From Closterium sp. NIES-65 (Eukaryota; Streptophyta; Zygnematophyceae; Desmidiales; Closteriaceae): a stretch of DNA of 64,000 nucleotides. The stretch is from contig CANXME010000292.1 in NCBI GenBank assembly GCA_948144175.1, forward strand, positions 1 through 64,000. The letters run 5' to 3'. The notes beneath the pieces were generated by a model. That model was given only the letters and a program-made list of their open reading frames with translations. It was not told the origin of the DNA and searched no databases. The translations under genes were made by a program, and so were the position numbers. Below are positions 5,403 through 39,905 of the stretch, piece by piece. How positions within the stretch are numbered: the first letter of the stretch is position 1; each line of letters begins with the position of its first letter.

Positions 5403-7455
5403 ATGGCACCAGCAGCGCCACCAGCATGCAGTGTCCACGCTGCCGAGCCCTCAATTTTAGGAATTGTTAATACGTCAGAGAGATTTCTTCTAGCTCCCGT
5501 CGCAGGCGCTGTGACTCACGCGTGCCTTGCTTGCTGCCCACCAGGAACCATGGCAGCCTCCGCGCTGCTGCCTGCTCACGTCACGCGCTTCGAGTCCGTG
5601 CCAGGGCTTGCAAGCTGGAATGCCGCCACGCGTGTGGAAAACATATCGCGGGTGTCCACGTGGCAGGATGACCTGGACCGCCTGCCGCCCCTTAACTCCA
5701 CCAATCGCCGTCGACTCGCTGGTAAGCGACTGCGCGTGAATGTTTCGCCTTCCCGATCCGCGCATCGCGCATCCGTTTCGCCCCAACCACATCCCAATAG
5801 CTGCGACTGAGCTTCTCTGTCCCCGCTGTGCCTTGCTGCACATCCCCGTACTCCCGGTGCCTTGCAACGCATCCCCGTCCCCCCTGTGCCTTGCAACGCA
5901 TCCCCGTCCCCCCTGTGCCTTGCAACGCATCCCGCGTCCCTCCTGTGCCGTGCTGCGCGTCCCCGTTCCCCCTGTGCCGTGCTGCGCATTTTTCTCCCCT
6001 GTTTTCCCCCCTTCCTTGTCGCGCTTCCCCGTGCCTTAATGCGCTGTTACTGCGACCCGCCGTTCCCTAGGTGGGCCCCTGCTGCCTTGCTGCCGCTTCC
6101 CGCCGCACCGCGCCGCAGCCCCCGCCGATAGAGTGTTTTGTATTCACTGATTACGCTTGTGTCGCACCCTGCCCCTGTGCTTGTGCGCCTGCAACGCGAT
6201 TGCGCCGTGGGGAGGGCGTGTTTGTCGCATGACGCGCAGCGTGCGACTACACGATGGGGCGGTGGGTGTACGACGCGCGGCGCCGGTCGTACAGCAGCAA
6301 GTGCGCGTGGATCCGCTCGGCCTTCAACTGCGAGCGGAACGGGCGGCGCGACACGGGGTACACCAAGTACGCGTGGAAGCCCAGCGCGTGCACCGTCCGA
6401 CGCTTCGACCGCGCCTACTTCAAAGCCTTGCTCCGCAACAAGGTCAGCCGCCTCGCCCCATCATGCGCTCCCGCGCTCAACCTACCAATTCACTTGATCA
6501 CCCTCGCCCTGTCCTTTTCTCCCCCCCTCTACCTGTTCGCCCTGCTTCCGCCACCTGTCTGTCACAAACCCTGTGTGCCGCGTCTGATGTGCGCCCTCCG
6601 TGCGTGCATTTGCGCGAGCAGGTGGTGGCGTTCGTGGGCGACTCGTTTTCGCGCAACGTGCAGCAGGCCATCGCGTGCGAGCTGGGCGTGGACGACCACG
6701 TGGAGCCGTGGTCGGGGTGGCTGGGCGGCACACTCGTGTCGGGGCTGGCCGTGCCGCGCTACAACCTCAAGCTCGTGGCCGTGGTGGCGCCGTACCTGGT
6801 GCGCTACAGCAACCAGGACTGGGCGTTCAGGCAGTATGGGCTGCGGCCGGGCGATGGCAGCCGCTACGTGGTGTGGCTGGACCACATGGACGACCAGTGG
6901 GCGGCCGTGCTGCAGCACGTGGACCTGGCTGTGTTCATGTCGGGCCACTGGTTCCTGGACAAGCAGGGCGCCGAGGCCGTGCGCTCCACCGTGTATGTGG
7001 CCAACAACCGGGTGGTGCGGTTGAGCGGCATGAGCGCGTACCGCGCCGCCATCCGCAGTGTGAAGCGGTTCGTGACCGTGGAGCAGAGGTACCGTGGCGT
7101 GCCCATGTGGCTCACCTACTCCCCCTCCCACTACTCGAGAGGTAACCCCCCCACATGCCGCCACACCACACCCATATCTACGAAGAGAGTTCAAACCATG
7201 GTGGCCCGTGACATCTCCACAGCTTTCAGAAGGCTGGAGGTGAGGGAGCTGAAGAAGTCACCCTTTCGAATAATCGACATCACCCGCATTTCCCTCTTCC
7301 GCCCAGATGCACATGTGAAGCGTTTCTATGGAGCCAAGACAAACAGCAAAACAAAGTGGGACTGCACCCACTGGTGTTTACCTGGACTTCCAGACGTCTG
7401 GGCCGACATATTCCAGTTTGTTCTCAAAACGCAATTGAGACGACACAAGAAGTAA
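5403..7455 (+). CDS. Trichome birefringence-like (TBL/DUF231, PC-esterase) protein
   Basis: Members of this plant family are Golgi polysaccharide O-acetyltransferases or related esterase-fold enzymes acting on cell-wall polymers. Exons with matching phases are 5403-5721 (donor gtaagc), 6240-6442 (acceptor gcgcag, donor gtcagc) and 6622-7455 (acceptor gagcag), ending in TAA. Exon 2 encodes the Cys-rich N-terminal TBL domain, starting CDYTMGRWVYD and including SAFNCERNGRRDTGY. Exon 3 opens with the GDS block (VVAFVGDSFSRNVQQ) and ends with the DxxH block (DCTHWCLPGLPDVW), the two catalytic signatures of the family. The model is 451 residues from the ATG at 5403, or 402 from the ATG at 5550, whose upstream bases also resemble a splice acceptor. 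No signal anchor is visible, so an upstream exon may be missing. The exact substrate cannot be inferred. Confidence 0.85.
5827..5995. repeat. 29-30-bp minisatellite in TBL intron 1
   Basis: Six copies of a unit containing GTGCCTTGCAACGCATCCCC begin near 5827, 5856, 5885, 5914, 5944 and 5973, inside intron 5722-6239. The last two copies read GTGCCGTGCTGCG. Confidence 0.85.
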
Positions 7456-7947: not shown

Positions 7948-8387
7948 TGTTGGGCTGAGATAGCCCCTTAGGATCTTTGCAAGGGATAACTTTAGGTGAA
8001 GTAGTTGTAATAGCAGAAGCGTTTAGTGAAGAATTTGAACCGACCTTGCACTGGTGTGTGAGAGCAAAGTTGATTGAATTAAACAAGCAAATACAAGGAT
8101 TTATATAAGAGTACAGGGAATACGAATAGATATGTAGATAACTGTATTGCTGTTGCGGTTCGATACAGTGCGACTCGGGCAACTGCTCTGTAGCGAGTCA
8201 GTTGTGTGTCCTTAACTGTCGCGCTGTAATTGTCGAGTCAAAGGTCAGCGACCTTTGACTTTCTCGTAACCTCCAGGCGGTTACCCTAACCTCCGAGGTT
8301 GACTCGATGCTCCGATTGGGACTGCTTCGCTTGGTGCCTTGGGTTTTGATACGACAGAAGCGCACTTAGGACTTATTGTTTCCAACA
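7948..8387 (-). repeat. Copia-1 3' LTR (440 bp)
   Basis: Direct repeat of 13600-14039 with one substitution. It contains a perfect 9-bp hairpin with a 3-base loop (TCAAAGGTC-AGC-GACCTTTGA, 8238-8258; its twin is at 13890-13910). Its inner edge supplies the last residues and the stop codon of Gag-Pol. Confidence 0.97.
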
Positions 8388-11300
8388 CTCCCCTTCGCTT
8401 CTGGAGTGTCGCTGCTGGTGACGTGGCCTTGTCCAGTCAGCATCATGCAGTATTCGAACTTCTGCTTTCCGAGTTTCTTGGTCAAGTAATCGGCTGCCAT
8501 CTCGGATGTTGGGCAGTATGACAGATCGAGTTTCCCCTTTTCTATCTCGTCCTTCACGAAGAAATAGCGCAGGGCGATGTGTTTCGTCCTGTTTGCGAAG
8601 CCGTTTTTGTTGGCGATGCGAATTGCTGACTGGTTGTCGCAGAACACGGTGAAGCTGGGTAACTCGGCTAGCTTCGCTTCTTCCAGTAGTTCGCGAAGGT
8701 AAAGTCCCTCCTTGGTGGCTGAGCAGAGTGCAATATATTCTGCTTCTGCTGAAGATAGTGCGATTAACTCCTGCTTGCTCGACTGCCAGGAGATAGGACC
8801 GATAGGCTCAAGGCGGTAGACATAGCCGGTGCGTGAGCGCCTGTTGTCGGTGTCGCCGGCGTGATCGGCGTCGACGTAGCCGATTAGCTTAGTTGGTGTA
8901 GCTGCGCTCTTGTGGTAGGTTAGCCCGATCGTCGCGGTGCTGACGAAGTAGTGGAGAGCGCGATCAAGTTCCGCCAGGTGTTCAGCTTCAGGCTTCTTGA
9001 GATAGGTGGCGAGCTGACTTGCGGAGTAGGATAAGTCAGGGCGGCAGGTGACGGCGGCGAATAGCAGGCATCCGAGCTTCTTCTGATAGTCGCGTATGCC
9101 GGCGGGCTTGAGTAGAGTAGTTCGTTCTTTCTCGGTTCCTGATGTATAGCGGTAAGGCGTGGAGATGGCGCTTGGTGTGAGGCTGAAGCGTTTCGCGATG
9201 GTGTCGGCGTATTTCTCGGCGCTTAGATAGATGGCGTTTTCTTCTTCGCGGATGTTGAGCCCGAGGTACTGTGTAACGGTGGAGGAGACCGTGAGCGTGA
9301 GATCTTTCTGGAGCTCTCCTTCGAACCACGTGGCGATGCCGTCGGTCGACCCAATGTAGAGGAGATCGTCCACGTAGACGATCAGGAGAACGTAGTCGCT
9401 TCCCTTAGTGAGGCGGTACATGCCTTGGTCGTGAGGTAGTTGACTAAAGCCGATGCGGATGAGACGGGCGTGTAGGTACTGCTGCCACAGTCGTGGTGCT
9501 TGCTTGATCCCGTAGAGCGACTTAAGTAGTTGACAGATTCGGTTGGGTTCGCCGTGGGAACCGTGCGGGAGCTCGACGTAGATTTCTGCATCCACAGGTG
9601 CGTAGAGGAAGGCATTCGCTACGTCGATCTGCCGTAACTTCTTCTTCTTCATGGCGGCAATGGCGAGGAGAATTCGGAGTGACGTGTGGCGGCTGACTGG
9701 AGCAAAGGTCTCGGTGAAGTCTCGTCCTTGCTCTTGGTCGAATCCACGTACGACCCAGCGTGCTTTGAATTTTTCGATCGTGCCGTCTGCTTTCGTCTTG
9801 ATGCGGAAGACCCATTTCCCGGTAAGGATGGTTTTGTTCCGTGCCACGCTTACGGGAACAACCTTCCAAGTGTTGCGTTCCTCTAATGCCTTCAGTTCTC
9901 TATCCATGGCTTCACGCCATTTCTCCCTGTGTTCCCCCCCCAGAGCCTGCTGAACCGTTGCAGGCTCCTGAGGAAGCGAGCTGCGTGTGTTCCCGTGGAC
10001 TGCGGTGACGAGGCCGAGGATTTGCAGCCCAGTCTGTGAGTATCGAGGGAGTTCTGGATCCTCGGGATAAGCTGCTTCGTCTCCCGCTTCTGGATCAGGG
10101 ATGAAATTCGGTCCTATCCTTTCTGCTTCATTTGTGTTGACAGTTGCAGGTGTTACGTAACCGGTGTCGGCGAAGTGGTAGAAGACTTCGGCGTTGTTAC
10201 TGTCGCGAGGATTTTCTTCGTCCATGGGCACGTTGACGGAGCAGTACGGGAGAGGTCCGGCTTCTGCCGATGCGTTGTCAACATTCTGCTCGTCCCAGTC
10301 TGCTTCATCCGCTGCTGATGCGAAGGCTCGGTCACCACGAAAACCACTGGTGAGGTCCCGATTCTCGTGCAAGTTGGCGAGGTACGTCTGAAGGGTGAGT
10401 CTTTCGTAGAAGATCACGTCACGTGCTGCTACTGTTTCCTTTGTGTGGACGTCGAAGATTCTCCATGCGTTGTAATTTTTCTCGATGCCGAGGTGTAGTC
10501 CCCACTGTGCCCGTTGCGAAAATCTTCCCGCTCGTGCTTCTGGGGGTCTGTACTGTACCATGCACCCGAAAACTCGTAACATTTTCGTGCTGCCCTGCTT
10601 CCCTGTCCACAGCAGATGCGGTGATGCGTTGTTCGGGAGTGACGACGACGACAACAAGTTGTGCAGCATGACAGCGTGGTCCATTGCTGCTGGCCACTGG
10701 TGGTTGGGTAGCCGCATGCCACGTAACAGTTTGCGCATGCTGTTCTGCAGGGTCCTGTTCAGTCGTTCTGCAACACCTTGCTGCTGATGTGCGTAGGGAA
10801 GGGAGAGGAGTTGCTTGATCCCCCTTTCCGCCAAGAACTGCTTGAAGCGGTGAGAGGTGTACTCGCCACCTCCGTCTGACTGGAAATTTTTCAGTTGTGT
10901 TCCAGACTCTCTCTCTGCTATCGGTAGCCAGGCGGCGAATGCTGCGAGTGCCATGTCGCGGCTGGGTAGGTTGCGATGCCAGACGTATCGAGTGGCGGCG
11001 TCGATGAAGGTGATGGTGTAGTTGTAGTTGACTTGTCCTGGTTCGCGATTGTAGAGGATGTCGCTGTAGACTTTTTCGAGTGGTGCGTACGCTGGAGCGC
11101 TCGGGTTGTGATGTGAAGCAAACGGTCGATGAGGTAAGTCAGCTTCGGGACATATAAGGCAAGTCCCTCGTGCCTTCTGGAGTTCTCTGCCATCGGGTAG
11201 AAGTAGAGAATCTTTGTCAAGGACTCCTGCTCTTATCGTGTTATTCAAAACCGTGTTGCTTGGATGTCCTGTTCGTGCGTGCCAGATCTCTTCAGAGGCG

Positions 11301-13543
11301 CGGTGTCCAGGTGAACGCTGATATGCGTCGGAGTTGGAGTAAAAGCTGGCGACGAGGTTGGCGCTTCGGTGGACTTCTCGTTGAGTCGGATTCAGCTGTT
11401 GTGCGGGTGTTGGTGGTGCTTCGTTGACTGTGACTGGTGTCGTTGTTTCTGCTGCTGCTGATGTTGTTGCTGCTGCCGATGTTGTTACTGCTGCTGATGT
11501 TGTTGCTGCTGATGTCGATGTTGTTACTGCTACCGATGTTGTTGCTGCTGATGTCGATGTTGTTACTGCTGCCGATTGTCGAATTGTTGCTAATGCTCGT
11601 GTTCGTTCTGCTTCAGGAATGGTGTGCGAGTACCAGAAGCCTCCCGGGCTGAAGTCGGGGTCGAGATCCGGAGGGTGTGTCCAATCAGTGAAATTCACGA
11701 TGGCGTCGCTGTCTGCAGTGCCGAGGTCAGGAACGAAGTCGAGGACGAAGACGTTGTTCTTCAGCACTGCTTTTCCGATGTAGAGACCGCCTCTCCCGTG
11801 GTAAAGCTTGAACTCCTGGGTCGTGCTGTCGGCTTCCAGATGAATTCCTTTCGCCATCAACTGGCTAACGCTCAGTAAGTTGTAGCCGAGTCCTTCAGCG
11901 ATGAGTACCTTAGACATGTGCAGTATGACGTTTGTTTCTCTTGACTGAAGTTGTACCACTCCTTGTCTTCGTGTGCGCAGGTTTTGGTTGTTGGCAACCG
12001 TGATGATTACTTCCCGTTGGAGTCGATGTTCGCGTTGTACGAAACGCCCGGACGAGCACATGTGTTGCCCGCAGCAACTGTCCAAGAACCAGGTGTCTTG
12101 GCCGGACGGTTCACTTTGAGCGATGGCGGCGTACGTTGGATTCGGCTGGAGTAGCTCACGGCGAGGCGTTCTGTTGTCAAGCTCTTCTTCCGGTGAGTAG
12201 TGTGGTGGTGATTCGGTTGTACACGAATCGGTTATCTTCGTCATGCAGTTGATTATGTTTCTTGCTCCTCGTGCAGGTTGTGAAGTCGTTGAAGCTTGAA
12301 TAGTGGTCGTCGCACTTGCTTGTGTTGAAGCCATTTGGGAGCTTGAAGGTCGAAGTTGTCGCTGTGATGCCGTTGATTGCTGACGATTCGGGCAGTGTGT
12401 GCGCGGGTGCCCTGAAGTCTTGCAGATGTGGCAGAAAGGAGGTACTATCTTCGGTTGCTGCTGTCGGTTGTTATAATTGCTGTGTCGTCGTTGAGTGTGG
12501 AATGCGAACTCTGATACTGTCGTTTTCTTCCTGTGTCGTTCTTCCTGCAGGTCCATATCTTGTTGCTCGGCATGTATTTCGGCGCAGAGTGCAGCTTCAG
12601 AGATTCTTCCGTGGGCTCGAAGAATGGCTTTGGTGGCGCGCCACTGAGGACCAAGCCCACCAATGATGACTGTCACGAAGGCGTCTTCAGAGATTGACCC
12701 TCCGCATCGAAGTAGCTTGTCGCGTAGTTCGCGACATCGGCTGATATACGCCAGTCCTTTTTCTCCTGGTTTCATTTCAACTGTCGTCAACTGCGCCATT
12801 AATCTGCTCTGGTTTACACTGTCTGTTGCTTGATACAGGTTCTTCAGATGGCTGTACGCGAGCTCCGCCGAGTTGCCGAAGGTCCGGTAAGAGCGAATGT
12901 TCTGCTGCTGAGTTGGTGTCACGTTCCTCAATAGGATTGTATACGCCATCATTGATTGATACGTATACTGCTGCTTTTCATATTGTGTCCCGTTGGCTGG
13001 ATACTGCAGGGAACCGTCGAAGAAGCCGAGTATCTGCGCGCCCTCCATCATCAGCTCGAATTCAAAGGACCAGGTAAAGAATTCTTTGCCGTCGAAGGGT
13101 CTTGACGTTTGCAGTTTTAAGACGTGTGCAAACTGCGACTGAACTTGAAGTGCGTCCAGTGGTCTTTCTTGTCCAGGTGAAGGTTGCGGGTGGGGCACGA
13201 AGCTGATTGACCCGCGCTCGTACGGAGCAAAGGTAGGTTGCTGCTGCTGGTTTCCTCGCGCATATGACGACCCATCAAGACTCATGGGTGTCGCTCCATT
13301 GTTGCTGTTGTGTGTTTGTGCAGGTCCCGACTGCTGGTGTTGTTCGTAGAAGGACATGAAGGAGAAAAATTTCTCCATCATGTTCTGGTCAAAGTCCGAA
13401 GGGTGGTTCATGGGGGTTTCGGTTGACGTTCCTCTTGGTCTTGTTGCCGTGCCTTCTTCTGTCTGCAGGCCAGAGGCTGGCGGTGGAGTAGGAGTAGTGC
13501 CCGAGGAGCCATTAGGGGAGCTCCTTTCCTTGTTTGTTGCCAT
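8366..13543 (-). CDS. Copia-1 Gag-Pol polyprotein, 1,725 aa
   Basis: This is one uninterrupted frame starting 56 bases inside the 5' LTR. Order of parts: Gag (to about residue 430) with a CCHC zinc knuckle CHICKTSGHPRTHC near 371-384; aspartic protease region with FLDSCCGQHM near 486; a Ser/Thr/Ala low-complexity spacer near 655-700; integrase with an HHCC finger (H755, H760, C795, C798) and D, D, E near 828 (YSDILY), 890 (QSDGGGEY) and 926 (QQGVAERLNRT); reverse transcriptase with YVDD near 1390; and RNase H with acidic residues near 1558 (YVDADHAG), 1600, 1636 (FCDNQSA) and 1685. The PR-IN-RT-RH order defines Ty1/Copia. The last codons and the TAA lie within the 3' LTR. The protease motif is DSC rather than the usual DSG or DTG, the only visible departure from a functional polyprotein. 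Confidence 0.97.
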   Translation of the reverse strand: MATNKERSSPNGSSGTTPTPPPASGLQTEEGTATRPRGTSTETPMNHPSDFDQNMMEKFFSFMSFYEQHQQSGPAQTHNSNNGATPMSLDGSSYARGNQQQQPTFAPYERGSISFVPHPQPSPGQERPLDALQVQSQFAHVLKLQTSRPFDGKEFFTWSFEFELMMEGAQILGFFDGSLQYPANGTQYEKQQYTYQSMMAYTILLRNVTPTQQQNIRSYRTFGNSAELAYSHLKNLYQATDSVNQSRLMAQLTTVEMKPGEKGLAYISRCRELRDKLLRCGGSISEDAFVTVIIGGLGPQWRATKAILRAHGRISEAALCAEIHAEQQDMDLQEERHRKKTTVSEFAFHTQRRHSNYNNRQQQPKIVPPFCHICKTSGHPRTHCPNRQQSTASQRQLRPSSSQMASTQASATTTIQASTTSQPARGARNIINCMTKITDSCTTESPPHYSPEEELDNRTPRRELLQPNPTYAAIAQSEPSGQDTWFLDSCCGQHMCSSGRFVQREHRLQREVIITVANNQNLRTRRQGVVQLQSRETNVILHMSKVLIAEGLGYNLLSVSQLMAKGIHLEADSTTQEFKLYHGRGGLYIGKAVLKNNVFVLDFVPDLGTADSDAIVNFTDWTHPPDLDPDFSPGGFWYSHTIPEAERTRALATIRQSAAVTTSTSAATTSVAVTTSTSAATTSAAVTTSAAATTSAAAETTTPVTVNEAPPTPAQQLNPTQREVHRSANLVASFYSNSDAYQRSPGHRASEEIWHARTGHPSNTVLNNTIRAGVLDKDSLLLPDGRELQKARGTCLICPEADLPHRPFASHHNPSAPAYAPLEKVYSDILYNREPGQVNYNYTITFIDAATRYVWHRNLPSRDMALAAFAAWLPIAERESGTQLKNFQSDGGGEYTSHRFKQFLAERGIKQLLSLPYAHQQQGVAERLNRTLQNSMRKLLRGMRLPNHQWPAAMDHAVMLHNLLSSSSLPNNASPHLLWTGKQGSTKMLRVFGCMVQYRPPEARAGRFSQRAQWGLHLGIEKNYNAWRIFDVHTKETVAARDVIFYERLTLQTYLANLHENRDLTSGFRGDRAFASAADEADWDEQNVDNASAEAGPLPYCSVNVPMDEENPRDSNNAEVFYHFADTGYVTPATVNTNEAERIGPNFIPDPEAGDEAAYPEDPELPRYSQTGLQILGLVTAVHGNTRSSLPQEPATVQQALGGEHREKWREAMDRELKALEERNTWKVVPVSVARNKTILTGKWVFRIKTKADGTIEKFKARWVVRGFDQEQGRDFTETFAPVSRHTSLRILLAIAAMKKKKLRQIDVANAFLYAPVDAEIYVELPHGSHGEPNRICQLLKSLYGIKQAPRLWQQYLHARLIRIGFSQLPHDQGMYRLTKGSDYVLLIVYVDDLLYIGSTDGIATWFEGELQKDLTLTVSSTVTQYLGLNIREEENAIYLSAEKYADTIAKRFSLTPSAISTPYRYTSGTEKERTTLLKPAGIRDYQKKLGCLLFAAVTCRPDLSYSASQLATYLKKPEAEHLAELDRALHYFVSTATIGLTYHKSAATPTKLIGYVDADHAGDTDNRRSRTGYVYRLEPIGPISWQSSKQELIALSSAEAEYIALCSATKEGLYLRELLEEAKLAELPSFTVFCDNQSAIRIANKNGFANRTKHIALRYFFVKDEIEKGKLDLSYCPTSEMAADYLTKKLGKQKFEYCMMLTGQGHVTSSDTPEAKGSVGNNKS
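8388..8398 (-). other. Copia-1 polypurine tract
   Basis: On the minus strand GCGAAGGGGAG sits directly before the 3' LTR start TGTTGG. It is the expected primer for plus-strand DNA synthesis. Confidence 0.8.
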
Positions 13544-25350: not shown

Positions 25351-28300
25351 CTACAGCAAGTGTGGAAACGTAGGCACAAGGCCCAACAAAATACAAAAGC
25401 GCTGATGAGCACCAGACGGAAGCGCCTTGGTGAATATATCAGCAGTGTTGGCCAAAGTGGCCACGTGAGCAAGACGAAGCTGACCCCGCTGCTGCAACTC
25501 TCGAGCTAGGAAGTAACGCAGACCAATGTGCTTCGTTCTGTGCTCCTCACACAAGGCAATGGCGGCCTTGTTGTCGACGTACAGCACTGGAGGAGAACGA
25601 GGCCGCTCTCCCAGGTCGGTCAGCAGGTAGGTGAGCCAGCGTAACTCCTGTGCAGCCATGGCTGTGGCGTAGATTTCAGCCTCACAACTGAAGCTGAGAA
25701 CTGAAGACGAGCGTGTAGAACACTAAGAAACAGAGCCAGAGCCAAGGCTGAAGGTGTAACCCTGTGACGACCGCTGCGTAGCCTGGTCGTCAACCCAAGA
25801 AGCGTCTAAGTGCCCAGTGAGGACAACTGCGCTCCGCCCTCCAAGCACGAGCCCCATGCCCGATGTACTGCACAAGTAGCGTAGTACCCTCTTAGCAGCA
25901 TCCATGTGCGCCTTTCGGTGCCGACCAGGAGCCACGTAGCGAGCCAGAAGGCCAAGAGTGTACGCAAGGTCAGGACGAGTGTAGGTCATCAGGTACATGA
26001 GGCAGCCCACTAGCTCTGGGTAAGGACCAGTCGGCTCTACGGACTCGTCCGAAGGTGGAGCTGAGAGCGAGTGACTTGTAGCCAAAGGAGTGGCCTGTGC
26101 CGAGGACCAGGTGAAGCCGAAGCGCTGAAGGACCTGCTGCACCATGTGTGACTGAGTCAGTGTGATGGTGCGGCGTGCTCTGTCCCGGGTGATCTACAAA
26201 CCTAGGTAACTGCGCAGCTCACCCACGTCTGTGCACGTGTGTCTCTTCTGCAGCTCCGAATTCACCAGAGCGAGAGCCTCAGTGTCAGCAGTGGCAAAGA
26301 CCAAGTCGTCGACGTATACGAGGATGTAGAACGGCGGTAACGAAGTGTCGATGCGCAGAAACAGCGATGGGTCAGCAGTCGACAGAGCAAACCCAAGAGC
26401 AGAAAATGTAGTCCTCAGTGTGTCGTGCCACTCACATGGCGCCTGGCGGAGACCGTAGACCGGCCGCCGGAGGCTCCACTGGGTACCAGGAGGGAACGAC
26501 CCATTGAAGCCAGGAGGGCGGCGCAGCCAGATCTCCTCGTGCAGACTGCCCTGCAAGAAGCTATGCTGAAGTCAAGAGAGTGAAGCTCGTAGTCACGCTG
26601 AGCGGCAACGTGCAGCAGTACCCGAAGAGTGGTCATCTTTGGGGTGGGGGAGAAGGTCTGAAAGAAGTCTACTCCCTCTCGCTGACTGAAACCTCGAGCC
26701 ACGTAACGAGCCTTGAAGACAGGCGGAGAACCTGGCGGCCGCTTCACCCTGAAAATCCACATGCCACTGACGATGTTCGCCCCAGGAGGGGGAACCTCGT
26801 CGACGCAAGCGCCTGTGGACTTCCAGGATGCCATCTCTGCGTCCATGGCTGTCTGCCACTGACAGGAGTACTCACCCGCGATCGCCTCAGCGTAAGAGCG
26901 TGGGGTCGGGATGTCTGGAGCATTCGGGTCTCCCTAAGGGGCAAGCAGCATAGATACGAGATGAGGCGCAGCGGCTGCAAGACACTCGAGGTCCTCCTGC
27001 CTGTCCTCAAGGACGTCCGTGCCAAGAGCACACCCACCCCCGACGGACGGAGGACAGACAGAATCAGACTCAGCAACAAGACTAGCGGCGTAGTCTAGAC
27101 GACAGGCAGCAGCAAAGTCAACAAGCTCAGCGACAAAGGCAGAGGCAGCAGCAGACTCAAATGATGGGTCAGTGACAACTATGGCTAGCAGACGCATGAC
27201 AGTAGAGTGAGCAGCACGGGTACAGTCAGACTTAGGCTCAGAAATGGTAGGCAGAGAAGCTGCAGGAGGGGACGGCAGGGGAACACGCTGTGGAGGAGAG
27301 GAAGGACGACGGACGACGAGGTGGGTGTCGGAGACAGCCGGCAGACGCGAACGAGGAACACGACGACCGGAACGACCAGGACTGACAGGCAAGACAGGAC
27401 GCGACGCTAGCTCACGACGCTCAGTAAGACCCCCTGTCCGCTCAGTGTAAGGAGAAGGAGCAGGCAGTGGTGAGTCAGGCTGTAACGGAAGACCAGTAGA
27501 CGAAGGGAGTCTAAGAACCTGGCGAAGCACAGAGTCAGGCGGTGGCTGAGACGACGGAGACGGAGGAGCAAAGAACAGGCGCGGCTGTGCACTGCCACCA
27601 GCACCAGCAGCTCCAGTACCCCCAGCAGCTCCAGCACCCTCAGCGTCAGCTCCTCCAGGACCAGCTCCACCAGCAGCAGCACCCTCAGCACCGGCACCTC
27701 CAGTCCCAGGGACTCGAGCCTTAGTGTCTCCAACAGCAGCACCTCCAGAACCAGCACCACTCCTAGCTCCAGTGACGCCAGCAGAAGTACCTCTAGCGGT
27801 AGAGCCTCGAGCTCCAGAAGCGCGACCCTGACGGCGACCGTACCAGTCGTGCAGCTGCTGGGAGGTGAGAGGCACACGCGGACGAAGGCGGCTACTCCAA
27901 GGAGACCGCACAACAGCAGACTCAAAACCCTCAGCGCCAGCACCCGCAGCAGCTCCAGAACCTCTAGCGCTGTCAGTAGATCTGCACTGTGGATGCCCGA
28001 TTGATCCTGGAGAGGGTTACAGGCGCGTTCGCCTGGGGGGTTATAGGCGCACTGACCCGCTACTGAAACAAGCCCTTTTATCCCAATGGTCTAGTGGTTG
28101 GGATTCTGACAAGCGCCAGCACCCGCAGCAGCTCCAGAACCTCCAGCGCCAGCACCATCAGCAGCCCCAGAGCCTCCAGCTCCAGCACCCTCAGCAGCTC
28201 CAGAACCTTCAGTTGAAACAACTCCAGTAGCAGAGTCACCAGCTCCAGCGCCTCCCGCAGCATGGCCCCTAGCTCCAGCAGTGCGACCCTAACGGTCAGC

Positions 28301-30771: not shown

Positions 30772-33513
30772 GGGTAGTCGGCTTTGAGACGACAAATCGT
30801 CGTTAATTCTCAACCAATGTTGTTGAGTGAGACCATTTTCTAGTAGCTCGGCTCGCGAAATGTCGATTGGTGGTCAAATCACGTTCTAATTCAAAGTATC
30901 CAGTCCGCGACGGCGATTTTTGTAAATCAAAATTTCTGGCAGAATTCTCTCCAAACGATTTCTCAAGTTTCCACCGTTCATAAGGCCTCAATATGGTTGG
31001 TATGAACTCCGGAGGTGCTAGTGGCGAGATGGATAGAAGTAGAGAGGCTGAAGAGCAGGGGGGAGTTGCTGGTGGAGGAGTGGGGACTCACCAACCAGCC
31101 AACCCTACGCTACCTACTTCTTCTACACCATCTCCTACTACCGTGGATCGTGTGAAAGCTTTCTCTATTGAGAAATTCATGGGGGAGGACTACGAGCACT
31201 GGAGTTTCTGCATGAGGCTGATGTATACCCAATACAAGCTATTGGATTTGGTGGAGGGAAAGGAGAAGATGCCGGAGGCCGCGGAGCTGAAAGGAGTGTG
31301 GATGAAGCGATCGTACGACGCGTACATGCTCATGGTGCAAGCGGTGGGCGGACGACAACTTGACCACATCAAGGACCTCTTGGGTGATCCAGAGTGTGGC
31401 CCCAAGGCTTGGAGGAAGTTTCTGGATGTGCACTCACCGACACGTGCTACCGACATCGTGCTACTCGCGTGGCGGCTGCGCGACATCAAGTTCGTTGATG
31501 GAGAGCCGATGCAACCGGTGTTGGATGAGATGCGGGACATCTTCACGAAGCTCCAAGGTGGCGGTGTGGTGTACCCGGAGCTCGTGCAATGCGTGGAGAT
31601 CGTGATACGGCTGTCGGATTCATGGTCTGCCCTTGCGATCAACCTCAACTCCCAACAACCCCAATGGAGCGTGGATTATATTCGCGGGCGCATCCTAGAG
31701 GAGGACTTGCGGCGGTGGAGTGTGAAGCGCTCGGAGGAGGGGGCTGACTATGGAGTTGGAGGTGGAAAGAGTGGCTTCAAGAAGAAGTGGAAGGGCAAGA
31801 ATAAGGATAACCCTAAGGAGGATGGCGGCGGGGGTCAAAGGGAGGTGTGCTTCTACTGCAAGAAGTGCGGACATCGTTGGCGGAAGTGCTACCAACGACC
31901 CAAGGATTGGATCCCGCCTTCATCAAGCAACCAGCGTGGTGGCACGAGGAGTGGGGGAGTCATGGGAGCTAGTGGAGAGGAGAAGGATAAGGAGAAAGGC
32001 GACAAATCTGAGGAGCGGAAGGCCGGGTTCTTCTTCGTGAACGAAGGCACAACCAACCACGCTATGGCTGCCAAGGTTCTCCTACACCCCCTCACCCATT
32101 GGGAGATAGACTCCGGGAGCTCTTGGCACATGACTCCTCGTGCGGACCTACTTGATGAGATTCAGCCCGCACCCATCTCTACAGTCACATCCGCGACGGG
32201 CGCCAAGGCCAAGGTCATGGGCATGGGATGCGCCAAGTTCATGGGAGCGGATGGAGAGCTCGTGGGGCTGAAGAACGTGCTGTGGGTGCCGGACTTGTGC
32301 GCGAACCTGATTTCTACCGGACGATTGGGAGATGCGGGTGTGAACACCGAGACGATTGGCTCGGAGCGCTATCGTGCCTACAACGATGAGCGGCTGATTT
32401 GGGACCTGCAGTGGAAAGGGGATGTCCACAAGCGGATGTGGCAGATCCCGGTCCTCCCTTGGCGGAAATCGGGCAAGGCGGCAGCGGCGGCATCTATGGA
32501 GGAGAGCGTCACCGAGGAGGAGAAGCAATGTGTGCAAGGAGAGGAGCTGATTGGAGGAAGCGCGGCGGTGAAGGCGCCGGCTACCTCGGGCCAAGCGGAT
32601 TGGGAGACTTGGCATCGGTGACTCGCACACGTGGCTCTTTCAACACTGGAGGTGATGCACAAGGAGAAGTGCGTGCATGGGCTGCAATTGCAAGGAGATG
32701 GCACTCACTATGGCAGCTGCGAGGCGTGCATGCAAAACAAGTTTGCGCGGTTCCCGTTCCCACGAGCGGAGGGATCAGCGAAGGCACCATTGGAGGTGGT
32801 GCACATGGACCTGGTGGGTCCTATGAGGACTTAGGGGACTGGGGGAGTGCTGTAATTCCTTACCATGGTGGACGAATGGAGCCGTTTCACGTGGGCGCGT
32901 CCCTTGTCCAAGAAGAGCGATGCTGCGGCGACGATCAAGGAGGATTGGTTGCCGATGGTGGAGCGGCAAGCGATGCGGCTGGTGAAGGTGCTGAGGAGCG
33001 ACAGAGGTGGAGAGTTCACCAAGTTCCTCAAGAGAAATGGCATCCGACATCAGTTGACCTGCCCTGGAACACCGCAGCAAAACGGCATTGCTGAGCGTGC
33101 CAACCGGACCATTGGCGAGGCGGCTAAGACCTTGTTGAAGGCTGCTGGGATGCCTTACAAGTTCTGGCCTGATGCCGTTCGCCATGTCATCACGGTCAAG
33201 AACAGGGTCTTGACGCATGTTGGCGACAAGCATTGGGTGCCGTATGAGCGTTGGCTTGGGAAGAAGCCATCTATTGACATGCTGCGTGTGTGGGGCTGCA
33301 TGGGGCTTGTGATGGTGCCTAAGGAGCAGAGGCACAAGCTGGAAGTTGCTGCTGTGTGGGCTGTCCATCTTGGGATGGCTCTTGACTCGAAGGGGTGGCT
33401 GATGTGGGACCCCAAGAGCAAGAGGACGCTGGTCAGCCGTGACGTCAAGTTTGTGGAGGACGTCATGTACAAGGACTGGCAGCAGCAGCAGCAGGTGCAG
33501 ATTGGCTTGCGTC

Positions 33514-33861
33514 TGTCAGAGGTCCACTGGTGATCCCCGATCGATCCTAGGGAAGGGTTACAGGCACGTTTGCATGGGGGGTTATGGGCGCACTGACCCG
33601 CTACTGAAACAAGCCCTTTTATCCCAATGGTCTAGTGGTTGGGATTCTGAGATGGTATCCAGAGCGAAGGTCTCGGGTTCGAATCCCGGTGTATGCACTT
33701 CGGGCATCTCAGTGCGAGGGGGTGTCAGAGGTCCACTGGTGATCCCCGATCGATCCTAGGGAAGGGTTACAGGCACGTTTGCCTGGGGGGTTATAGGCGC
33801 ACTGACCCGCTACTGAAACAAGCCCTTTTATCCCAATGGTCTAGTGGTTGGGATTCTGAGA
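33514..33861 (+). mobile_element. TRIM: 348-bp miniature LTR retrotransposon with tRNA-like promoter
   Basis: LTRs 33514-33652 and 33723-33861 are both 139 bp and differ at two positions. They start TGTCAGAGG and end ATTCTGAGA. GCGTC is duplicated outside (33509-33513 and 33862-33866). The interior is 70 bases. It starts with the PBS TGGTATCCAGAGC (33653-33665, one inserted base relative to TGGTATCAGAGC) and ends in the purine tract GCGAGGGGG. No coding capacity. A Pol III A box, TGGTCTAGTGG (33628-33638), lies at the 5' LTR end and a B box, GGTTCGAATCC (33676-33686), in the interior. It sits inside Copia-4 pol. Confidence 0.92.
33628..33686 (+). promoter_or_regulatory. tRNA-type Pol III A and B boxes across LTR/PBS junction
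   Basis: TGGTCTAGTGG at 33628-33638 fits the A-box consensus TRGYNNANNGG and GGTTCGAATCC at 33676-33686 fits the B-box consensus GGTTCGANTCC. Their 48-base offset is within the range of tRNA genes. A D-arm (TCCCA...TGGGA) and a T-arm (CGGG-TTCGAAT-CCCG) can be drawn, but no acceptor stem pairs. TTTT runs at 33617-33620 and 33826-33829, at the same place in each LTR, could act as a Pol III terminator in the 3' LTR. Function is inferred. Confidence 0.6.
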
Positions 33862-35948
33862 GCGTCTGCAGGAAATTGAGCGGTCTATAGTGGAGGAGGT
33901 TCAGCTGCACCTTGATGAACTCCACGGGTCAGAGCTGACCAGTGACCACAGTGGCGGTGGTGAGCAACAAGTTTCTGGTCCTGCTGGAGAGGAGGGGTTG
34001 GAGGATGAGTCGGCACGTGTGGACTCACCATCTCAGCCCGAGCCTGCTGCAAACGCCAAGGTCACCAAGAGGAGTGTGCAGAGAGGAGCTTCACCACATG
34101 GGCAGCAGATTGCAACGCGTGAGAAAAGAGTGGCAGCAGCACCCTCAAGGCTGAAGTATAGCCGTTTGGGAGGACCCAAGCAAGGTGCCATGGCGGTTCA
34201 GGCGGATGAGGGAGAGGATGAGGAGATGGCGTTCTATTTCTTCACACCCTTGCCTGGAGAACCAGCCACAGTGGAGGAGGCACTGAGTGGACCCCAAAGG
34301 GAGGAGTGGAAGGCTGCCATGGATGCGGAGTTCAACAGTCTCATTGAGAATGGGACTTGGGAGCTTGTTGAGTTACCCGAGGGGCGACGACCGATCAGCA
34401 GCAAGTGGGTCTTCACAGTGAAGAGTGGTACTGATGGTGCGTTGGAGCGGTTCAAGAGCCGCTTGGTTGCCAAGGGGTTTCAGCAGAAGGAAAAGGTCGA
34501 CTTCGGGGAGATCTTTGCTCCCGTTGCTAAGCCAGTGACATTGAGGACTTTGATGGCTGGCGCAGCTGTGAAGGGATGGCACGTGAAGCAGATGGATATC
34601 ACCACTGCATTCCTCAATGGAATACTGCTGGAGGATATCTACATGGCGCAGCCCGACGGCTGTGAGGATGGGACCAGCCGGGTGTGCAAGCTTAAGAAGG
34701 CCATCTATGGCCTTAAGCAAGCACCCAGGTGTTGGTACGAGAAGCTGGAGGAGGTGCTGCTGGGTGGAGGCTTCAAGACGTCCCAGGCGGATCACAGCTT
34801 GTTTCTACTTGGAGAGGGGGAGCAGCTGCTTTTGCTGCTGGTGTATGTCGATGACATACTGCTGTTCTCACCTTCCATGGAGCAGATTGAGAGGACACAG
34901 AAGCTGCTGATGGACAACTTCAAGTGCAAGATGCTGGGGGATGTCCACTACTACTTGGGGCTGCAGATTGAGAGGGATGTTGAGAGGAGGTGGCTGAAGG
35001 TGTATCAGTCACACTACATCTCTGGTGTCATGGAGCGGTATGGTGTGACTGGGGGTCGCACTATGATGACACTGTTCCCTGCAGGCTTCAAATTGAAGAA
35101 GGCAGCTGAGGAGGATGATGTGCTTGAGGATGAGCAGCAAAACGAGTACCAGTCACTCGTTGGGAGTGTGATGTATGCTGCAGTGCATACACCACCTGAT
35201 GCTTCATTCGGAGTGGGGCAGCTGGCCAGAGTTGTGCAACGGCCCACTGTGGAGCAGTTGGAGGTGGCAATGCGCTTGGTGCGCTACCTTGGATAAACGG
35301 CATCTGCTGGTGTTCAGTTTTCAGCTGGCGGCCAGCTGAAACAGATTGGAGCAGATGGGGTCACGCCTGGTACCTTGAAGCTGTCGTGCTTCAACGACGC
35401 CACATGGGCCTCAGAGGATGAGGATCAGTCATCCGTTGGCGGCTTTGTGTGCATGGTCGGAGGTGGACCAGTGAGCTGGAGGTCCAAGAAGCAGAGTGAG
35501 ATTGCTCAATCTTCCGGAGAGGCAGAGTACATGGCGATGTACCATGCCATCAAGGAGATCGTGCTCCTGAGGAAGCTGCTGGAGGACATGGGAGCTGAAC
35601 AGGAGGGACCTACACCACTTTTCTCCGACAGCGAGGCTGCTATTGGCATGGCCAATAATCCTATCCTAAATGGGCTGAACAAGCACATGAAGATTAAGTG
35701 GCACTGGGTGAGGCAGATGGTGAAGGAGGGAGCTGTTGAGCTTCACCATGTGAAGGCTAGCAAGCAGGCGGCAGATTTTCTCACCAAGAGACTTCCCGAG
35801 AGCGCACATTGGAAGTGTGCTAAGATGTGTGGCATGGCATTGCACTAGTGAGAGCAGCAATGTCATGAATGCATGTGTGATTGTGTGCATGAGACTATGC
35901 ATGTGTGTGAGTGTGTGTGCATGCAGTCCGTTAGTCTGAGGGGGAGTT

Positions 35949-38736: not shown

Positions 38737-39905
38737 AGGTGTGCATTCCGCGTTAGTGCGCATTTGGAGCTGAAACCTTGGTTGAAGGTGTGGAGGGGTA
38801 TGGAGAGCACCGGCATGTGCAAAAATCCTGGCCGCTTTGCAATTTTCTACATCCTAGTGAGTTTGTTAGCGTTGTGGGGGGAAAATTGCCCGAAATGCCT
38901 CGGAGGGGCCCGGTCTTGGGGTGTGCATTCTGCGTTGTGCGCATTTCGAGCTGAAATCATGACTGAATGTGTGGAGGGGTATGGAGAGGCTGAGCATGTG
39001 CAAAAATCCCCGGCCGCATTGCGATTTTCTGCACCCGAGGAGGTTTTTAGCGTTTTGGGGGAAAAATGACTTGAAACGCCTAGGAGGGGCCCTGCCTCGG
39101 ATGTGTATGTCAGAGGTCCACTGGTGATCCCCGATTGATAATAGAAAAGGGTTACAGGCTCGTTGTTCTGGAGGGTTATGGGCACACTGACCCGCTACTT
39201 AACAAGCCCTTTTATCCCAGTGGTTAGTGGCTGGGATTCTGACATGGTATAAGAGCGAAGATCTCGGGTTCAAATCCCAGTGTGCGCACTTCGGGCATCC
39301 CAGTGGGGGGGGGGGGTGTCAGAGATCCACTGGTGATTCCCGATTGATCCTAGGGAAGGGTTACAGGCTCGTTGTCCTGGGGGGTTATGGGCGCACAAAC
39401 CTGCTACTTAACAAGCCCTTTTATCTCAGTGGTTGGGATTCTGACAGTGTGCATTCCGCGTTTGTGCGCATTTCGAGTTGAAACCGTTGCTAAAGGTGTG
39501 AAAGGGTATGGAGAAGACGAGCATGTGCAAAAAATCCCAGCCATTTTGCAAATTTCTACACCCGAGTGGGTTTGTTAGCGCCCGATTTTGTAGTGAATGG
39601 CCCGAAACGCCTAGGAAGGGCCCAGTCTTGGATGTGTGCATTCCGCACTTTCGCGCATTTGAGCTGAAACCGTGGATAAAGGTGTGTAGGGGTATGGAAA
39701 ACACGATCATTTGCACAAATCCCCGACCGCTTTGTAACTTTCTACACTCGAGTGGGTTTGTTAGCGTTTTGGAGTGAAAATGGCCCGAAACGCCATGGAG
39801 GGGCGGTCTCGGAGGTATGCATTCCGCGTTTGTGCGCATTTCGAGCTGAAACCGTTGATAAAAGTTGTCGAGGGGTATGGAGAGCACGAGCCTGTGCAAA
39901 AATTT
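38737..39905. repeat. ~185-bp tandem array interrupted by a TRIM
   Basis: Units start with GTGTGCATTCCGCGTT and run through GCGCATTTCGAGCTGAAACC, GGGGTATGGAGA, TGTGCAAAAATCCC, GAGTGGGTTTGTTAGCG and GCCCGAAACGCC. Starts are seen at about 38737, 38920, 39447, 39634 and 39815, 181-187 bases apart apart from the TRIM. Copies are perhaps 75-85% alike, so the array is old. Confidence 0.87.
39108..39446 (+). mobile_element. Second TRIM copy inside the 185-bp array
   Basis: LTRs 39108-39244 and 39317-39446 start TGTCAGAG and end TTCTGACA. Between them are a PBS-like TGGTATAAGAGC, the B-box-like GGTTCAAATCC and a G tract. Flanks are GTGTA (39103-39107) and GTGTG (39447-39451). The undisturbed neighbouring array units read GATGTGTGCATTCC, so the left copy of the duplication has mutated. 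The A box is damaged (the CAATGGTCTAGTGG region reads CAGTGGTTAGTGG here). Confidence 0.88.

Follow-up and report, generated by a model that had tools for sequence, protein, structure and literature searches.

A TRIM of Closterium sp. NIES-65 with tRNA-type promoter sequence across its LTR/PBS junction

The element at 33514-33861 and its surroundings

The window analyzed in this work is a stretch of 64,000 nucleotides (contig CANXME010000292.1, forward strand), which includes a PC-esterase-type gene (6157-7455; a Closterium sp. NIES-65 protein matches it at 99% over 65% of the query), a Copia-type open frame of 1,725 aa on the minus strand (8366-13543) with gag, integrase and RVT_2 domains, and a satellite with a 31-bp unit that fills at least its last 21 kb (43004-64000). 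At 33514-33861, on the plus strand, it carries a TRIM of 348 bp, in which two LTRs of 139 bp, delimited by sequence comparison (33514-33652 and 33723-33861) and differing at 2 positions, enclose an interior of 70 bp (33653-33722). The interior opens with a tRNA-iMet-type primer binding site (PBS; 33653-33667), recognized from the sequence and from comparison with host iMet genes, and closes with the polypurine tract GAGGGGG (PPT; 33716-33722). The two copies of the target site duplication (TSD) GCGTC are read directly at 33509-33513 and 33862-33866. The LTRs, PBS, purine tract and 5-bp duplication that the first-pass annotation had placed here are confirmed in the sequence, and the element has the properties by which a TRIM is recognized: it is shorter than 1000 bp and without coding capacity, its two LTRs enclose an interior bounded by a PBS and a PPT, and its TSD is short.

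The PBS of the window copy reads TGGTATCcAGAGC, that is, the PBS of the family plus one additional C, and its LTR terminates in ..CTGAGA, versus ..CTGACA in most other copies. A search of the host for tRNA-iMet genes gave 21 with the ending ..GCTCTGATA, an ending most of which was fixed by the search pattern itself. CCA is added to the 3' end of tRNAs, and the complement of the iMet end plus CCA is TGGTATCAGAGC, the PBS of the family; in copies of the A type (see below) the PBS is extended by GA, which fits iMet genes ending in ..CTCGCTCTGATA. The extra C is common to the window copy and to those at L004, L005, L007 and L087; thus, the extra-C form has still multiplied, and priming seems to tolerate an extra C within the PBS of the young sub-lineage of the window.

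The TRIM has a gag_2 and Pol_BBD frame (30993-32621) upstream and an RVT_2 frame (33890-35296) downstream, which places the insertion within a Copia-type element. Contig C831 (L001) bears the identical insertion with the identical TSD, and the second copy of the window (see below) recurs there with its spacing of 5,702 bases unchanged; hence, C831 repeats that part of the window.

Promoter sequence divided between LTR and interior

The LTR carries the A box, TGGTCTAGTGG (33628-33638), at its 3' end. The B box, GGTTCGAATCC (33676-33686), is confined to the interior, where it closely follows the PBS within a T-arm (33674-33689); this T-arm region was interior in 53/53 interiors. The two boxes match the A-box and B-box consensus, and their starts are 48 bases apart, as the first-pass annotation had it; the TTTT runs that it reported in both LTRs are also present, at the same LTR position (33617-33620 and 33826-33829) and nowhere else in 33514-33861. 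From the 5' LTR onwards, the order is CAAGCCC, TTTT, ATCCCAA, the A box, TTGGGATTCTGAGA, the PBS, GAAGGTCT and the T-arm with the B box. The first TTTT directly precedes the tRNA-like part, the A box is enclosed by the hairpin ATCCCAA/TTGGGAT (33621-33645), and the TTTT of the 3' LTR is a candidate Pol III terminator. The CAA at 33610-33612 is a candidate Pol III start, proposed from the sequence and from the passages on CAA triplets in PMC11700998. The locus is, in short, a TRIM with tRNA-type promoter sequence across the LTR/PBS junction; since this sequence runs from the LTR across the PBS into the interior, a B box is absent from solo LTRs and from 3' LTRs.

When the 348 bp were subjected to 20,000 dinucleotide shuffles, an A box arose in 5,679 of them, a B box in 92, and an A box followed by a B box with 20-60 bases between them in 2. 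The reading of the TRIM as a tRNA gene was rejected: ARAGORN called no tRNA gene anywhere in the window, the Rfam tRNA model scored the TRIM at 15.3 bits versus a cut-off of 29, and no acceptor stem can be drawn for the tRNA-like part. Among 99 loci, ARAGORN with introns allowed reported a tRNA-Thr in L020, L021 and L022, which are one TRIM array, and a tRNA-Val in L008. The 63 genome matches of RF00005 lie in repeated sets, are presumably plastid and were left aside. A special RNA fold for the TRIM transcript was likewise rejected, the predicted RNA folding no better than shuffles (z 0.15), and no TATAWA motif was seen by eye in the window LTR.

The two arms resemble the tRNA-Gly(GCC) of the host, the isotypes compared being tRNA-Gly, confirmed as a host gene, and one tRNA-Glu pattern. 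Indeed, 15 of the 16 bases of the A-box arm CCAATGGTCTAGTGGT and 15 of the 16 of the T-arm CGGGTTCGAATCCCGG are equal to host tRNA-Gly(GCC), the latter rising to 16/16 in B-type copies with GATTCC. The start-to-start spacing of the boxes in the window copy, 48, is that of the host gene L100; in typical copies of the A and B type it is 47 and 44, respectively (all manual counts). Compared with tRNA-Gly, the LTR end and the PBS stand in for the anticodon arm, and the acceptor stem is missing. The tRNA-Gly(GCC) pattern has 41 matches in the genome, of which one is a TRIM and the other 40 are tRNA-Gly-like; the three fetched from the 40 (L100, L101 and L102) were called tRNA-Gly(gcc), each with a 6-base intron. 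The intron letters vary among the 40 places, one of which is without an intron. tRNA-Glu, initially suspected as the donor, was discarded, all 14 matches to the tRNA-Glu-like pattern being TRIM copies.

The family, its conservation and its composites with Copia-type elements

The genome searched comprises 874 Mb in 2,400 contigs, in which the LTR signature TGGTCTAGTGGTTNGGATT, with the A region intact, has 8,220 exact matches, versus 0 for the control. At least 40 near full-length copies are 99-100% identical to the window copy, with 2 weaker ones (40 of the 1,358 candidates were scored). Sixteen close copies with TSDs were fetched; 15 of them have identical LTRs and the 16th is the window insertion itself, which indicates a recent burst. 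Two main LTR types were recognized among the fetched loci, A (interior of ~70) and B (interior of ~93), in addition to recombinants and tandem arrays. The window also holds an older full copy (39108-39446, plus strand), which is of the A type, is flanked by GTGTA/GTGTG without an exact TSD and has an A box that is damaged in the 5' LTR, as well as a B-type solo LTR of this family (27971-28111, plus strand, TSD AGCGC). In a sample of 68 groups taken independently of similarity to the window copy (L084 and L087 are also among the 40 close copies), 47 have two LTRs (34 with an exact 5-bp TSD), 17 have one LTR (8 with a TSD) and 4 have at least three LTRs; the median LTR-LTR difference in the 34 TSD-flanked two-LTR groups is 2.9%, with zero difference in 3. 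A third subfamily, suggested by the 322-bp interior of L012 (1525-1847), was dismissed, that interior being by eye an LTR-like insertion flanked by TGCAC.

Conservation was followed in the first 100 of 2,544 listed copies, which had been selected on their U3, on the PBS and on an anchor of 9 bases in the interior, and not on the A box. Of these 100, 84 retain the A consensus TRGYNNARNGG and 16 lack it, 90 retain TTTT and 77 retain CAAGNNNTTTT. Among the interiors and LTRs obtained via the A pattern or adjoining it, the B consensus is present in 44 of 53 interiors and missed in 9, and TTTT occurs somewhere in 114 of 123 LTRs. An A box, a B box and a TTTT in the 3' LTR, with no TTTT between, are found together in 16/16 close relatives and in 23/34 other TSD-flanked copies. 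The mean majority share is ~98% over the 11 A-box columns versus ~92% over 15 unanchored U3 columns of the same 100 copies (manual arithmetic), a gap due mostly to three U3 columns that vary between subfamilies. It had been asked at the outset whether the boxes are conserved beyond the rest of the element: young copies do keep them, and the comparison with the rest is weakly resolved because the copies are too alike.

An LTR form in which the A box is one base short but the hairpin is intact, CCCAGTGGTTAGTGGCTGGG, has 267 exact matches versus the 8,220 of the intact pattern; this damaged form did spread, though far less, with age and exact matching confounding the two counts. The seventh pair of the hairpin, read in 97 copies, is A-T in 83, G-C in 8, unpaired in 5 and G-T in one. 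The paired change that keeps the hairpin in the damaged form suggests that something besides the A box is under constraint, and the spread of that form would argue against an A box that is needed.

A further aspect concerns composites with the order other LTR, PBS, TRIM interior, TRIM LTR, PBS, other interior, which were found in 6 of the 68 groups (L040 1-7494 with L059; L025/L039; L042; L057; L062; L083). Only the upstream part of such a structure is seen in L041 and L049 and only the downstream part in L018, and the ends of the upstream LTR vary from locus to locus. Nine loci had been flagged with another LTR upstream; L088, one of them, turned out to be a locus-edge artefact, leaving 8. 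In L040, the outer LTRs are identical to each other over 131 bases and share only their ends with the TRIM LTR, and the composite as a whole is flanked by the TSD ACCCC; it follows that it was inserted as one unit. The domain scan of composite interiors covered L040 and L039: the frame after the TRIM LTR of L040 has rve and RVT_2 above the cut-off and gag_2 below it, and L039 has Copia-type domains farther downstream, past a Helitron-like frame. This order is most simply read as the outcome of recombination, or of a template switch, at the PBS that both elements share; nucleic acids of the TRIM and of Copia would then come together in the course of reverse transcription. A partnership of the TRIM with Copia is supported by the composites, which link the TRIM to Copia-type elements and are relevant to the way in which such parasites borrow machinery.

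Possible Pol III expression and relation to known elements

The explanation that we prefer, and consider reasonably probable, is that a tRNA-type promoter made of the LTR A box and the interior B box would drive the synthesis of a Pol III RNA, which would be primed by tRNA-iMet and mobilized by Copia proteins. TFIIIC would bind the 5' LTR at its A box and the interior at its B box, behind the PBS, and Pol III would start near the CAA at 33610-33612, proceed through U5, PBS and interior, and stop at the TTTT of the 3' LTR, yielding an RNA of ~219 nt whose terminal repeat R would be ~10 nt, AAGCCCTTTT. With tRNA-iMet as the primer at the PBS, the Copia proteins would copy and integrate the TRIM with a 5-bp TSD, and reverse transcription would put the A box in both LTRs, the single B box remaining interior. 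The A box being duplicated and the B box single, the whole promoter would stand only at the 5' end of an intact element, and solo LTRs and 3' LTRs are expected to be silent for Pol III. To this more detailed proposal, i.e., a split promoter with the A box in both LTRs and the sole B box behind the PBS, firing only at intact 5' ends, with the LTR end and the PBS replacing the anticodon arm and an R of ~10 nt between CAA and TTTT, we assign roughly even chances. If true, a single genome would hold intact copies that fire next to silent solo LTRs of one family, and Pol III-type miniature LTR elements would extend to algal relatives of land plants.

In favour of the preferred explanation stand the order and spacing of the boxes, the match of both arms to host tRNA-Gly(GCC), the retention of boxes and TTTT in most copies, the excess of the intact A-region pattern over the damaged form, the fit of the iMet genes to the PBS and the composites at the PBS. 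Some of our data count against it. ARAGORN calls no tRNA and an acceptor stem is missing, the Rfam score lies below its cut-off, the form with the damaged A box has spread, the predicted RNA has no folding advantage over shuffles, the terminator run has four T only, and the signals are incompletely kept (16/100 A boxes, 10/100 TTTT runs and 9/53 B boxes missing). Moreover, according to the CAA passages of PMC11700998, CAA triplets within ~10 bases upstream of plant tRNA genes are start sites, and the CAA of the TRIM lies 9-11 bases upstream of the tRNA-like 5' end, at or just past the usual 10.

It might be argued that the boxes are a relic, derived from a tRNA piece captured long ago and hitch-hiking ever since, with Pol II transcription from U3 or from neighbours. 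Copies as similar as these would make hitch-hiking look like conservation, and the form with the damaged A box spread anyway (267 matches); on the other hand, the boxes and TTTT are kept in 16/16 close relatives, no TATAWA motif was seen in the window LTR, and the A-box columns exceed those of U3 (~98% versus ~92%), even if three subfamily-variable columns make up most of that gap. On balance, we deem a relic promoter unlikely, though deserving serious attention. The damaged form also bears on whether the hairpin and the T-arm, which lie on either side of the PBS, have a role at the RNA level, for instance in primer capture or packaging. In some retroviruses a tRNA-like element near the PBS acts in the RNA, and in the Closterium TRIM the hairpin ATCCCAA/TTGGGAT adjoins the PBS, the T-arm directly follows it, and the G-C form of the seventh pair (8 of 97, versus 83 A-T) preserves the stem at the cost of an A-box base. 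However, the G-C change may have arisen once and been inherited, the RNA as a whole shows no better folding than its shuffles, and such a role leaves unexplained both the TTTT at its LTR position and the full type-2 promoter match, so that we regard it as improbable. Lastly, an ordinary TRIM might resemble a tRNA promoter by chance, which would agree with its rejection as a tRNA by ARAGORN and the Rfam tRNA model; yet the ordered pair of boxes appeared in 2/20,000 shuffles, and two separate 16-base stretches of the window copy match one host tRNA gene with its order and spacing, which makes a coincidence hardly credible.

As regards known systems, the suggestion of the first-pass annotation that a tRNA-based counterpart of Cassandra would be a possibly undescribed class did not hold, since tRNA-bearing TRIMs had been published by Kojima in 2024 (PMC10886601) as Helenus, in fungi, animals and one plant, Selaginella, within a wider Pol III-type group named TRIMp3; a 2026 meeting report (PMC12859917) repeats this account. 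The Closterium TRIM has the A and B consensus in order within a TRIM, as in TRIMp3, and resembles Helenus as described in that paper in being a TRIM (311-1263 bp in Helenus) with tRNA-derived A and B boxes, in the 5-bp TSD (reported for fungi and one plant), in the link with Copia (reported for fungal Helenus) and in the tandem arrays (reported for one fish family). It differs in its algal host, in the A box, which is mostly TRGCY in Helenus and TGGTC here (a difference that also counts against the preferred explanation), and in the position of the boxes: both are described in the LTR of Helenus (PMC10886601), whereas in Closterium the tRNA-derived LTR sequence is limited to the A-box arm and the B box is interior, behind the PBS. 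A layout split across the junction was not found in the parts of Kojima 2024 that were consulted, figures and tables among them, nor were the split layout, an algal host or such composites found in the literature searched, chiefly open-access and with the supplement of PMC10886601 outside it. The same search found no paper on a TRIM in streptophyte algae, and the main text of PMC4717578 mentions neither "polymerase III" nor "tRNA". Thus, the Closterium layout differs from that of Helenus, from which it is set apart by the description of Helenus and not by the Selaginella sequence; the Selaginella Helenus may have the same split layout.

With tRNA-derived SINEs the element shares a type-2 Pol III promoter with A and B boxes, but it has LTRs, a PBS, a PPT and an integrase-type 5-bp TSD, and is without a SINE tail. 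Cassandra, as described in PMC7215508 and PMC10886601, is likewise a TRIM of the plant lineage whose LTR has a Pol III promoter, and it too has an iMet-type PBS TGGTATCAGAGC, tandem arrays and a short RNA terminal repeat, given as 18 nt in PMC10886601. Its promoter is that of 5S rRNA, lies wholly in the LTR and has been shown to be transcribed, whereas Pol III transcription of the Closterium TRIM is a prediction; no 5S rRNA match was found in 33300-34100 at E up to 5. Among the tandem arrays of the Closterium family, that of L030 (1383-1995) has three LTRs, with a single 5-bp TSD around the whole array.
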